This document shows, piece after piece, positions 14,731 to 18,039 of a stretch of DNA of 36,907 bases. The DNA lies in the NCBI GenBank assembly GCA_015056005.1, contig SVHB01000019.1, forward strand, positions 1-36,907, read 5' to 3'. The stretch comes from Clostridiales bacterium (lineage in GTDB: Bacteria; Bacillota; Clostridia; Christensenellales; UBA1750). The notes under the pieces were generated by a model. It was not told the DNA's origin, did not search any database, and worked only from the letters and a program-made list of their open reading frames with translations. A program made the translations under genes and the position numbers. Each line of letters opens with the position of its first letter. Position 1 is the stretch's first letter.

Positions 14731-15240
14731 TTAAACGAGCTCGAGGGTGACCATATCGGCGCCGTCGCCCTTGCGGGGGCCTTTACGGATAATGCGGGTG
14801 TAACCGCCCTTCTGGCCTTTCTCCTCAGCGCGCTTCTTGTACTTGGGGCCATACTCGCGGAAGATCTTCTCTACCAGGGGATGCTTAACGCCCTTGGTCC
14901 TGTCGCGGTATTCAGCCTTGTCCTCGTCAGCCTTCTGAACATCGGGAATCCTGTAAAGGAAAGCCATCATTGCTCTGCGGGCAGCGAGCTTGCTGGGAGC
15001 ATCGTTGGTGAAGGTGGCAGTGATGGTCTGACCCTTCTCGTTGTTGATCTCCTTGGTTACTTCGACGGTGTTGTCGCACTCATCGATAGCCATGGTGATA
15101 TACTTTTCAGCTATTTTGCGAACTTCCTTGGCTCTCTCAAGCGTAGTATCGAGCTTGCCGTACCAAAGAAAATAAGAAACCTGGTTTCTAAGAAGCGCCT
15201 TGCGCTGATCTGCAGGCCTTCCCATTTTGCGCTGGGCCAT
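14731..15240 (-). CDS. rplQ: 50S ribosomal protein L17
   Basis: The 169-residue protein starts MAQRKMGRPADQRKALLRNQ and has the L17 core segment LERAKEVRKIAEKYITMA. It is longer than the roughly 115-130 residues of many L17 proteins, because of an inserted region around residues 55-80 and a basic tail ending DMVTLELV, as in other Clostridia. It lines the exit side of the large subunit and is the last gene of the alpha operon, directly before the terminator. Confidence 0.96.
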   Translation of the reverse strand: MAQRKMGRPADQRKALLRNQVSYFLWYGKLDTTLERAKEVRKIAEKYITMAIDECDNTVEVTKEINNEKGQTITATFTNDAPSKLAARRAMMAFLYRIPDVQKADEDKAEYRDRTKGVKHPLVEKIFREYGPKYKKRAEEKGQKGGYTRIIRKGPRKGDGADMVTLELV

Positions 15241-15278: not shown

Positions 15279-16223
15279 TTACTCGTCAACCGAGCGCAGA
15301 CGCAGACCCAATGCGGCAAGCTTCTGCTCGACTTCTTCGAGGGACTTCTTGCCAAGGTTGCGGACCTTCATCATATCGTCTTCGTTGCGCTGGATAAGCT
15401 CATAAACGGTATTGATGTTGGCACGCTTTAAGCAGTTATAAGCACGTACGGACAGGTCAAGTTCTTCAATGGTCATGACCTGTACCTTTTCCATCTTCTT
15501 GTCCTCAGGCTCGTTGAAATCGATCGGAATGACATTGTCAGTCAGATAGACGAAGAGCGCGAGCTGTTCGCTCAGAAGCTTTGCAGCGCTGGAAACAGCT
15601 TCGTCGGGCTTGATGGAACCGTCTGTCCATACTTCAAGGGTGAGCTTGTCATAATCGGTGACCTGACCCACTCTGGTGTTTTCAATGGTATAATTAACCT
15701 TGTAAACGGGAGTGAAGATGGAGTCTACCGGAATAACGCCGATGGGAAGACCGTTTTTCTTGTTCTTGTCAGCGGAGACATAGCCTCTGCCGGATTCAAG
15801 GGTCATTTCCATGTTGAGAGTTGCACCCTCTGCAAGAGTAGCGATAACAAGATCCTTATTGATGATCTCAACTTCTTCGTCTACTACGATGTCGCCTGCG
15901 GTAACTACTGCAGGACCCTTTGCATTGATGGTAACGGTTTTTACGTTATCGGTAAACATCTTGGCGGAAAGCTCTTTGAGGTTGAGAACGATCTCCGTGA
16001 CGTCTTCCTTGACGCCGGGTACGGTCGAAAACTCATGCTGTACGCCGTCGATCTTAACGGTAGAAATTGCAGCTCCGGGAAGGCTGGAAAGCAGTACTCT
16101 TCTAAGAGCATTGCCCAGAGTAAGTCCGAAGCCTCTTTCAAGAGGTTCTACCACAAACTTGCCGTACTGGTTATTGTCGGATATTTCAAGGCATTCAATC
16201 TTGGGCTTTTCCATCTCGATCAT
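15279..16223 (-). CDS. rpoA: RNA polymerase alpha subunit
   Basis: This 314-residue protein has the N-terminal assembly domain, with the conserved [20 protein letters not shown], and a flexible linker near residue 235. The C-terminal domain (about 245-310) has the helix-hairpin-helix [20 protein letters not shown] that contacts UP elements and activators. The length matches the family. The GGAGGATG site lies just ahead of ATG 16223. Its place between rpsD and rplQ is the standard alpha-operon order. Confidence 0.98.
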
Positions 16224-16270: not shown

Positions 16271-16897
16271 TTACCTGGAATAGAACTCAACAATGAGATG
16301 CTCTTCGATAGTCAGATCGATATCTTCCTTGGTGGGCATTGCAGTAACAGTGCCGGAAAGCTCTGCTGCGTTGATGGTGAGCCACTTGGGAACGATCTTG
16401 CCGGTGCCTTCGCGCATAGCCTTGAACTGTTCAACGTCGTAGCTGCGCTCGCGGATAGCGATAACATCACCCATATCTACGAGGTAGGAAGGAATGTTGA
16501 CCTTCTTGCCGTTTACGGAGATATGACCATGGAGAATGAACTGACGAGCCTGTGCACGGCTGTTGCCGAAACCGAGACGGTAGACAACGTTATCAAGCCT
16601 GCGCTCCAGCAGCTGGAGCATGTTTTCGCCGGTAACGCCCTTCATGTTCTCGGCCTTGTCGAAGTAACGGCGGAACTGCTTTTCCATAACGCCGTAGGAC
16701 TTCCTGACCTTCTGCTTCTCACGAAGCTGGGTGCCGTATTCGCTCATCTTACGAGCTCTGGCCTGACCGTGCTCACCGGGAACGGTAGCTCTCTTGGTCA
16801 GAGCGCACTTTGCGCCATAGCAGCGGTCGCCCTTGAGGAACAGCTTAGTGCCCTCGCGGCGGCAGATGCGGCAAACGGATTCAGTATATCTTGCCAT
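16271..16897 (-). CDS. rpsD: 30S ribosomal protein S4 (zinc-binding C+ form)
   Basis: The 208-residue protein starts [20 protein letters not shown]. Four cysteines (C9, C12, C26, C31) form the zinc site of C+ S4 proteins. The S4 RNA-binding domain is visible around [20 protein letters not shown] and [20 protein letters not shown]4 starts 30S assembly and in many bacteria represses its own operon, which matters for the structured gap before rpsM. In Bacillus rpsD is separate; its position inside the alpha operon fits Clostridia. Confidence 0.98.
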
Positions 16898-16916: not shown

Positions 16917-17318
16917 CTACACTCTTCTGCGCTTGGGGGGGCGGCAGCCATTGTGGGGAACGGGAGTGACGTCCTTGATCATGGTTACGGAAAGACCCGC
17001 TGCCTCAAGAGAACGGATAGCAGCTTCTCTGCCTGAACCGGGGCCTTTTACATAGACCTCAACGGTCCTCAGGCCATGTTCCATAGCTGCCTTAGCGGCA
17101 GTTTCAGCGGCAGTCTGTGCTGCGAAGGGAGTGGACTTCTTGCTTCCACGGAAGCCGAGGCCGCCTGCGGAAGCCCAGGAGAGAGCATTGCCCTGGGTGT
17201 CGGTGATGGTTACGATGGTGTTATTGAAAGAGGAACGAATATGTACGGCGCCACGCTCAACGTGCTTGCGCTCCTTGCGGCGACGAACGACCCTCTTGGT
17301 CTTGCTGACGTTAGCCAT
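16917..17318 (-). CDS. rpsK: 30S ribosomal protein S11
   Basis: The 133-residue protein contains the S11 signatures [20 protein letters not shown] and [20 protein letters not shown], and ends in a basic CRPPKRRRV tail. It sits on the platform of the small subunit next to the mRNA exit. It lies between rpsM and rpsD with about 20-nt gaps and a clear Shine-Dalgarno site, in the normal alpha-operon order. Confidence 0.98.
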
Positions 17319-17337: not shown

Positions 17338-17706
17338 TTACTTTTTCTTGCCGGCAGCCTGCTTCTTCGGGCCCTTACGGGTACGGGCATTCTGCTTGGT
17401 GTTCTGACCGCGAACGGGCAGGTTACGACGATGACGTACACCGCGATAGCAGCCGATTTCAACAAGGCGCTTGATGTTCAGGGAAACTTCACGACGAAGG
17501 TCACCTTCGACCTTCAGGTTGGAGTCAATATAGTCACGAAGCTTTGCAACTTCGTCTTCAGTGAGATCTTTGATTCTGGTATCAGGATTTACGCCGGTAG
17601 AAGCCAGAATATCACAAGCGGTCTTGTGACCGATGCCGTGAATGTAAGTTAAGCCATACTCGACGCGCTTCTCTCTGGGAAGGTCAACACCTGAAATACG
17701 TGCCAT
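17338..17706 (-). CDS. rpsM: 30S ribosomal protein S13
   Basis: The 122-residue protein starts [20 protein letters not shown], has the H2TH segment [14 protein letters not shown], and ends with the basic [20 protein letters not shown] tail that contacts tRNA. GGAGG lies 12 nt before ATG 17706. It is preceded by the largest gap of the superoperon, a structured 219-nt region, so its translation may be specially controlled. Confidence 0.98.
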
Positions 17707-17925
17707 TTATCTTTTGCACCTCCGGATAATTTAGGAAACGTAGGAACTATATGTAGGCACTTGGGATCACCCGCGGGTAAGGCGAGTGCAGCCGCTCCCT
17801 TATGCTTTCATATCTTATTTAGGTCGCCGTCTTGCGGTCATGCCCGCTTCCGACGATAATTACGCACCAAAAGCGACAACGCGCATACTTCGCCCGTGGT
17901 CGCTTTTGGTAAATAAACTTGTTGA
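17707..17925 (-). promoter_or_regulatory. Structured intercistronic leader before rpsM (candidate r-protein autoregulatory RNA)
   Basis: This 219-nt gap holds no convincing gene. On the minus strand it can form: a perfect 12-bp stem ACCAAAAGCGAC/GTCGCTTTTGGT (17910-17899 with 17877-17866); a second helix, CGTC/GACG enclosing GCGG/CCGC (17855-17828); and near the start codon GGGA/TCCC (17799-17796 with 17766-17763), whose loop sequence GCACT (17789-17785) can pair with AGTGC at 17761-17757, a pseudoknot-like layout. The GGAGG of rpsM lies just after. In E. coli, S4 binds a pseudoknot at this same place in the operon. No T-run follows the long stem, so it does not look like a terminator. Confidence 0.55.
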
Positions 17926-18039
17926 TTAACCCTGCTTCTGCTTATGCTTGGGGTTTTCGCAGATGACCATGATTCTGCCCTTGCGCTTAATGATCTTGCA
18001 CTTTTCGCACATGGGCTTAACGGAAGGTCTGACTTTCAT
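17926..18039 (-). CDS. rpmJ: 50S ribosomal protein L36 (zinc-binding C+ form)
   Basis: Reading the minus strand from ATG 18039 gives a complete 37-residue protein, [20 protein letters not shown] followed by [17 protein letters not shown]. Three cysteines (C11, C14, C27) and H32 form the zinc site. This is exactly the usual length. An AGGAGG site precedes it. It lies between infA and rpsM, the conserved position. Confidence 0.97.

Follow-up and report, generated by a model that had tools for sequence, protein, structure and literature searches.

A conserved candidate S4-binding leader upstream of rpsM in the alpha operon of Clostridia

The gap between rpmJ and rpsM in a Clostridiales alpha operon contains a conserved RNA element (17749-17813, minus strand) that we read, with a probability of roughly 0.83, as a cis-acting regulatory leader that binds ribosomal protein S4 and lowers expression of rpsM-rpsK-rpsD-rpoA-rplQ. 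The window, meaning the whole 36,907-nt stretch of DNA analyzed, holds one copy of this widespread element, for which Rfam 15 has no family. It appears to be a real S4-type leader, apparently undescribed when set against the Bacilli leaders as fetched here. Such a leader would explain the balancing of the alpha operon in a large part of Clostridia and would link the clostridial operon to the known rpsD control of Bacilli. It would also give a natural relocation series in which to follow the persistence of an RNA–protein regulatory contact as operons are rearranged.

Table 1. Positions of the candidate leader, its parts and the neighboring genes in the window
Feature	Coordinates	Strand	Basis or remark
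Entire conserved element P1 - GCGGCUG - P2 - P1', candidate S4-binding leader	17749..17813	−	R2 match 17758-17804
P1 5' strand AUAUG aaa GCAU aa GGGA	17796..17813	−	Fold; P1 position covaries in relatives
5'-side bulge GCGGCUG, proposed S4 recognition sequence	17789..17795	−	Conserved heptamer
P2 hairpin CACUCGC-CUUACCC-GCGGGUG	17768..17788	−	6/6 modelled P2 pairs changed on both sides
P1 3' strand UCCC aa GUGC cua CAUAU	17749..17766	−	Fold and covariation
Hairpin with perfect 12-bp stem	17866..17910	−	Not conserved; similar stem only in L008
rpsM Shine-Dalgarno GGAGGUG	17717..17723	−	Sequence; 10 nt 5' of ATG, 25 nt 3' of element
rpmJ (L36)	17926..18039	−	NCBIfam TIGR01022
rpsM (S13), first gene 3' of element	17338..17706	−	NCBIfam TIGR03631
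rpsK (S11)	16917..17318	−	NCBIfam NF003698
rpsD (S4), proposed ligand; third gene 3' of element	16271..16897	−	NCBIfam NF003717/TIGR01017
rpoA	15279..16223	−	NCBIfam NF003515
rplQ (L17)	14731..15240	−	NCBIfam TIGR00059

The genes infA, rpmJ, rpsM, rpsK, rpsD, rpoA and rplQ, identified through NCBIfam, form a cluster on the minus strand. The rpmJ–rpsM gap on this strand spans 17707-17925, exactly the 219 nt in which the original prediction had placed an autoregulatory RNA, and its coding-strand fold beats dinucleotide shuffles modestly (z −2.74, 4/200). The perfect 12-bp stem named there exists (ACCAAAAGCGAC/GUCGCUUUUGGU); 12 bp is reached in 1 of 500 shuffled gaps, in which the longest perfect stem averages 6.2 bp. 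A second helix with an internal loop, also predicted, is found in the MFE structure of the gap. The 12-bp stem has a counterpart in one other genus of the family only (10 bp, in L008) and was dropped as the functional part since it is conserved no further. It is a local decoration with a U-rich 3' arm that may serve as a weak terminator, or as a hairpin for processing, downstream of rpmJ.

Conservation lies in a different part of the gap. Across gaps of the window's own order, 84–469 nt long, the shared arrangement is P1, the 5'-side bulge GCGGCUG, a variable hairpin P2 and P1'. In the predicted fold of the window, the two P1 strands pair through symmetric 3x3 and 2x2 internal loops, and a single A separates P2 from the P1 3' strand, a spacing of one or two bases in relatives. 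The P2 loop differs in length and sequence from family to family. Within this otherwise variable hairpin, five loci from different families (L001, L008, L037, L039 and L053) have the loop CCUUACCCG (or CUUAACCCG) in common, which may have a partner or be inherited. Taken by itself, the window element has an ordinary folding energy (z −1.4, 46/500), and its pair probabilities in context are 0.1-0.24, so the element is visible only by comparison, and it is on comparison that the case rests.

Covariance models from which the window was left out recover this site. Model R1 was built from 16 MAFFT-aligned members and model R2 from 57 rows, and each returns the site as the sole match in its own 2.5-Mb genome (R1, 16.3 bits, E 9.5; R2, 28.9 bits, E 0.0155; E 2.3e-4 when R2 searches the window alone). 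Across the class, matches with E up to 0.037 fall without exception between rpmJ and rpsM. The first MAFFT alignment, A1, mixed P1 registers and was replaced by the one-register seed A2; GCGGCUG is invariant in both, and a further alignment, A4, includes one stray row (L068:901–947). Among the 57 sequences, all 14 modelled pairs have changes on both sides, and 95.4% of cells are paired, against 34–47% after shifting one side by 1–3 columns, in an alignment that was fitted to the structure. No shuffle reaches the covariation score of this alignment. A plain MAFFT alignment of 26 sequences, not fitted to the structure, gives 80.4% paired versus 38–50% slid. For another 29 sequences, the window among them and most of the rest drawn from Bacilli or from elsewhere in the class, the figures are 94.9% and 29–49% in an alignment still made to the model, and all 14 modelled pairs covary there too.

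Enrichment points the same way. Of 156 distinct rpmJ-rpsM gaps that reach 70 nt, 112 contain GCGGCUG (2.75 expected), the commonest 7-mer once the last 30 nt are excluded, and 97 contain the full motif (0.75 expected). Gaps shorter than 70 nt carry the heptamer in 0 of 116 cases. As judged by comparing sequences, then, the element exists, both of its helices are kept by compensatory change, as looked for in an S4 leader, and its position is fixed 5' of the operon's first gene. The relatives' gaps had been singled out as the place where the idea could fail, through a lack of compensatory changes or through mostly short gaps, and neither outcome was found. The pseudoknot proposed beside the Shine-Dalgarno site fares differently: no conserved pairing was found there, conserved pairs being confined to P1 and P2.

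The element is present in all 11 genomes of the window's own family, in 16 of 19 in the remainder of the order sample and in 30 of 67 loci of the class sample, where 24 of those without it have gaps shorter than 70 nt. Other classes of the phylum have it in 4 of 89. It spans Clostridia and part of Bacilli, rather than being lineage-specific as originally supposed. Variants of the heptamer occur in those other classes of the phylum, such as GCGGCUA in L159 and L163. Two genomes of family f34 whose rpmJ-rpsM gaps lack the GCGGCUG element (L286 and L309) share a different sequence just 5' of the Shine-Dalgarno site, CCUGUCUAUAUCAC...GUGACGGAAGAUAGGAG, which looks like another candidate rpsM leader. 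Known RNAs also lie near two of the fetched loci: a Clostridiales-1 RNA (RF01699; L032, 344-496, minus strand) and a TPP riboswitch (L361, 2221-2329, plus strand).

Ligand candidates encoded in the operon are S13, S11, S4 and L17. In the first set of loci, rpsD lies downstream in 83 of the 83 motif loci with enough downstream sequence, which is weak evidence alone because most loci without the motif also have rpsD downstream. More telling is the position of the heptamer when rpsD moves. In Clostridia, rpsD stays in the alpha operon, which is not the case in Bacilli (PMC10931766). We scanned the 260 nt upstream of 44 Bacilli rpsD genes that lie outside the operon; these are not all independent, about ten being from one family. 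GCGGCUG is found in 36 of these 44 solo rpsD leaders (0.32 expected), and in 31 it sits in a loop whose closing stem has six or more pairs (0 expected). The stems of these hairpins vary around a constant heptamer, as in CUAACAGGACAGCGGCUGAACUUUCCUGUUAG and CCUGUAUGGACAGCGGCUGAUAAUGCUAUACAGG; the heptamer occupies the apical loop and P2 is missing, leaving a stem plus seven bases as the part common to both arrangements. For three of the solo-rpsD genomes (G669, G710 and G746), the only ones for which the rpsM gap was fetched, that gap is 19–22 nt long and lacks the heptamer, and the rpsD leader carries it. Conversely, where Bacilli keep rpsD inside the operon, the P1–GCGGCUG–P2 element precedes rpsM in 7 of 8. 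The heptamer is thus on rpsD when that gene is solo and before rpsM when rpsD is in the operon, indicating that the element goes with rpsD and that S4 is the likely ligand. The exact heptamer is absent from 8 of the 44 solo leaders, including the Bacillus-like L318 and L319. In these two loci, as in L392 and L393, GUAACCC or GUAACUCC precedes a small hairpin whose loop contains GGCUGC or UGCUGC, which may be a degenerate version of this site.

That the ligand is not S4 but a different operon-encoded protein (S13, S11 or L17) seems improbable. S13, named as an alternative in the original prediction, would suit an element directly 5' of rpsM, yet it is disfavored, as the others are, by the solo-rpsD Bacilli, which bear the heptamer hairpin on rpsD and none in the three rpsM gaps fetched. 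Also favorable to a different ligand is family f56 (L312, L336 and L343-L346), the exception to a location 5' of the S4-encoding transcription unit, as expected of an S4 leader. In part of this family rpsD is gone from the alpha operon; its distant position was located in one case, G083. Three f56 genomes (L336, L343 and L344) have no rpsD downstream of rpsM-rpsK and still carry GCGGCUG 5' of rpsM, which lowers confidence in S4. Within the same family, L343 and L344 have a weak P2 or none, and L345 and L346, where rpsD is also out of the operon, have lost the element altogether; of the five f56 genomes without an operon rpsD, four have it reduced or missing. We read the orphan elements as remnants, or as a sign of control in trans by S4.

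A non-regulatory structure (for instance a site of RNase processing or mRNA stability, or else a terminator or attenuator between the rpmJ and rpsM parts) is very unlikely. It would fit the location within a co-directional gene cluster and the U-rich 3' arm of the neighboring 12-bp stem; a plain processing or terminator stem, however, is not expected to have an invariant unpaired heptamer, still less one that recurs in rpsD leaders. A search of the coding strand of the window found no terminator-like site. Promoter-like sequence precedes the element in 9 of the 37 motif gaps with room for it (0.6 expected), which argues against this reading and suggests that the element often lies in a 5' UTR. 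No promoter-like sequence was found on the coding strand of the window gap, and here the element therefore probably lies within a longer transcript. A chance structure, or decoration that does nothing, is consistent with the unremarkable folding energy (z −1.4) and is scarcely credible given the covariation, the unique genome match and the enrichment. An autoregulatory RNA bound by the S4 encoded downstream, as first proposed, is thus favored by the covariation, the conserved heptamer and the way the element follows rpsD; one part that does not stand is its seat, the conserved portion being distinct from the 12-bp stem.

Under S4 control, free S4 would recognize GCGGCUG as presented by the variable stem P1, which in this case carries P2 on top. 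Once S4 outnumbered 16S rRNA it would bind the leader, and expression of the rpsM-rpsK-rpsD-rpoA-rplQ unit would fall. We infer that S4 binds the element; by analogy with the S4 leaders reported from E. coli and B. subtilis, and less firmly, binding may repress translation of rpsM and the coupled downstream genes. Since the element ends 25 nt 5' of the Shine-Dalgarno sequence, occlusion would not be direct, and the likeliest route to repression would be altered folding of the intervening stretch or altered ribosome loading. Helix 18 forms part of the S4 site on 16S rRNA and has a GGCUA bulge flanked by two helices; GCGGCUG may, speculatively, imitate this bulge. It is about an even bet that a single S4 recognition element, a stem plus GCGGCUG with its bulge imitating helix 18, has been carried through Firmicutes and relocated with rpsD, standing before rpsM in the alpha operon of Clostridia and some Bacilli and on rpsD where that gene has left.

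For Bacillus subtilis and other Bacilli, an S4 leader upstream of rpsD was reportedly described by Grundy and Henkin in 1991 and 1992 and by Deiorio-Haggar in 2013. The clostridial element resembles the Bacilli rpsD leader in having a stem that presents GCGGCUG (in 31-36 of the 44 fetched solo leaders), in its presumed ligand and in the lack of a reported pseudoknot. In those Bacilli, rpsD is separate from the alpha operon, and the apical loop of one hairpin in a larger folded leader holds the heptamer, whereas in the element described here the heptamer bulges from the 5' side between P1 and P2 and the element stands alone 5' of rpsM. Around its heptamer hairpin the Bacilli rpsD leader is larger and multi-helical, with a conserved GUAA; by inspection, the rpsM leaders appear to share only P1/P2. 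Bacillus-like rpsD leaders differ further in missing the exact heptamer. In B. subtilis, S4 acts on the rpsD leader to repress translation of S4 itself, with no pseudoknot involved (PMC10931766). The paper that describes RF03140 states that the Bacilli-type S4 leader is absent from Clostridia (PMC7247131).

No Rfam 15 family reaches its gathering score in the window or 20 relatives, the comparison suggested originally. The S4-Clostridia r-leader RF03140 (Eckert & Weinberg 2020) shares the same gap and the same proposed ligand and differs in consisting of two adjacent hairpins with GAAAG and CCCCAAUUAG, another fold. Membership in this family, which is rare (5/291 class genomes), was rejected, with no match in the window, its own genome or the 20 relatives at the cut-off of 37.5 bits. 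The best match at a lax threshold, to the E. coli alpha operon ribosome binding site (Alpha_RBS, RF00140), was likewise rejected, being at chance level (14.1 bits against a cut-off of 38) and aligning only the rpsM coding start. The likeness to E. coli is that S4 would exert its control from the rpsM end of the alpha operon. In E. coli, the ribosome is trapped by S4 on a pseudoknot (PMC10931766) that takes in the rpsM start, unlike the P1 and P2 helices of the clostridial element.
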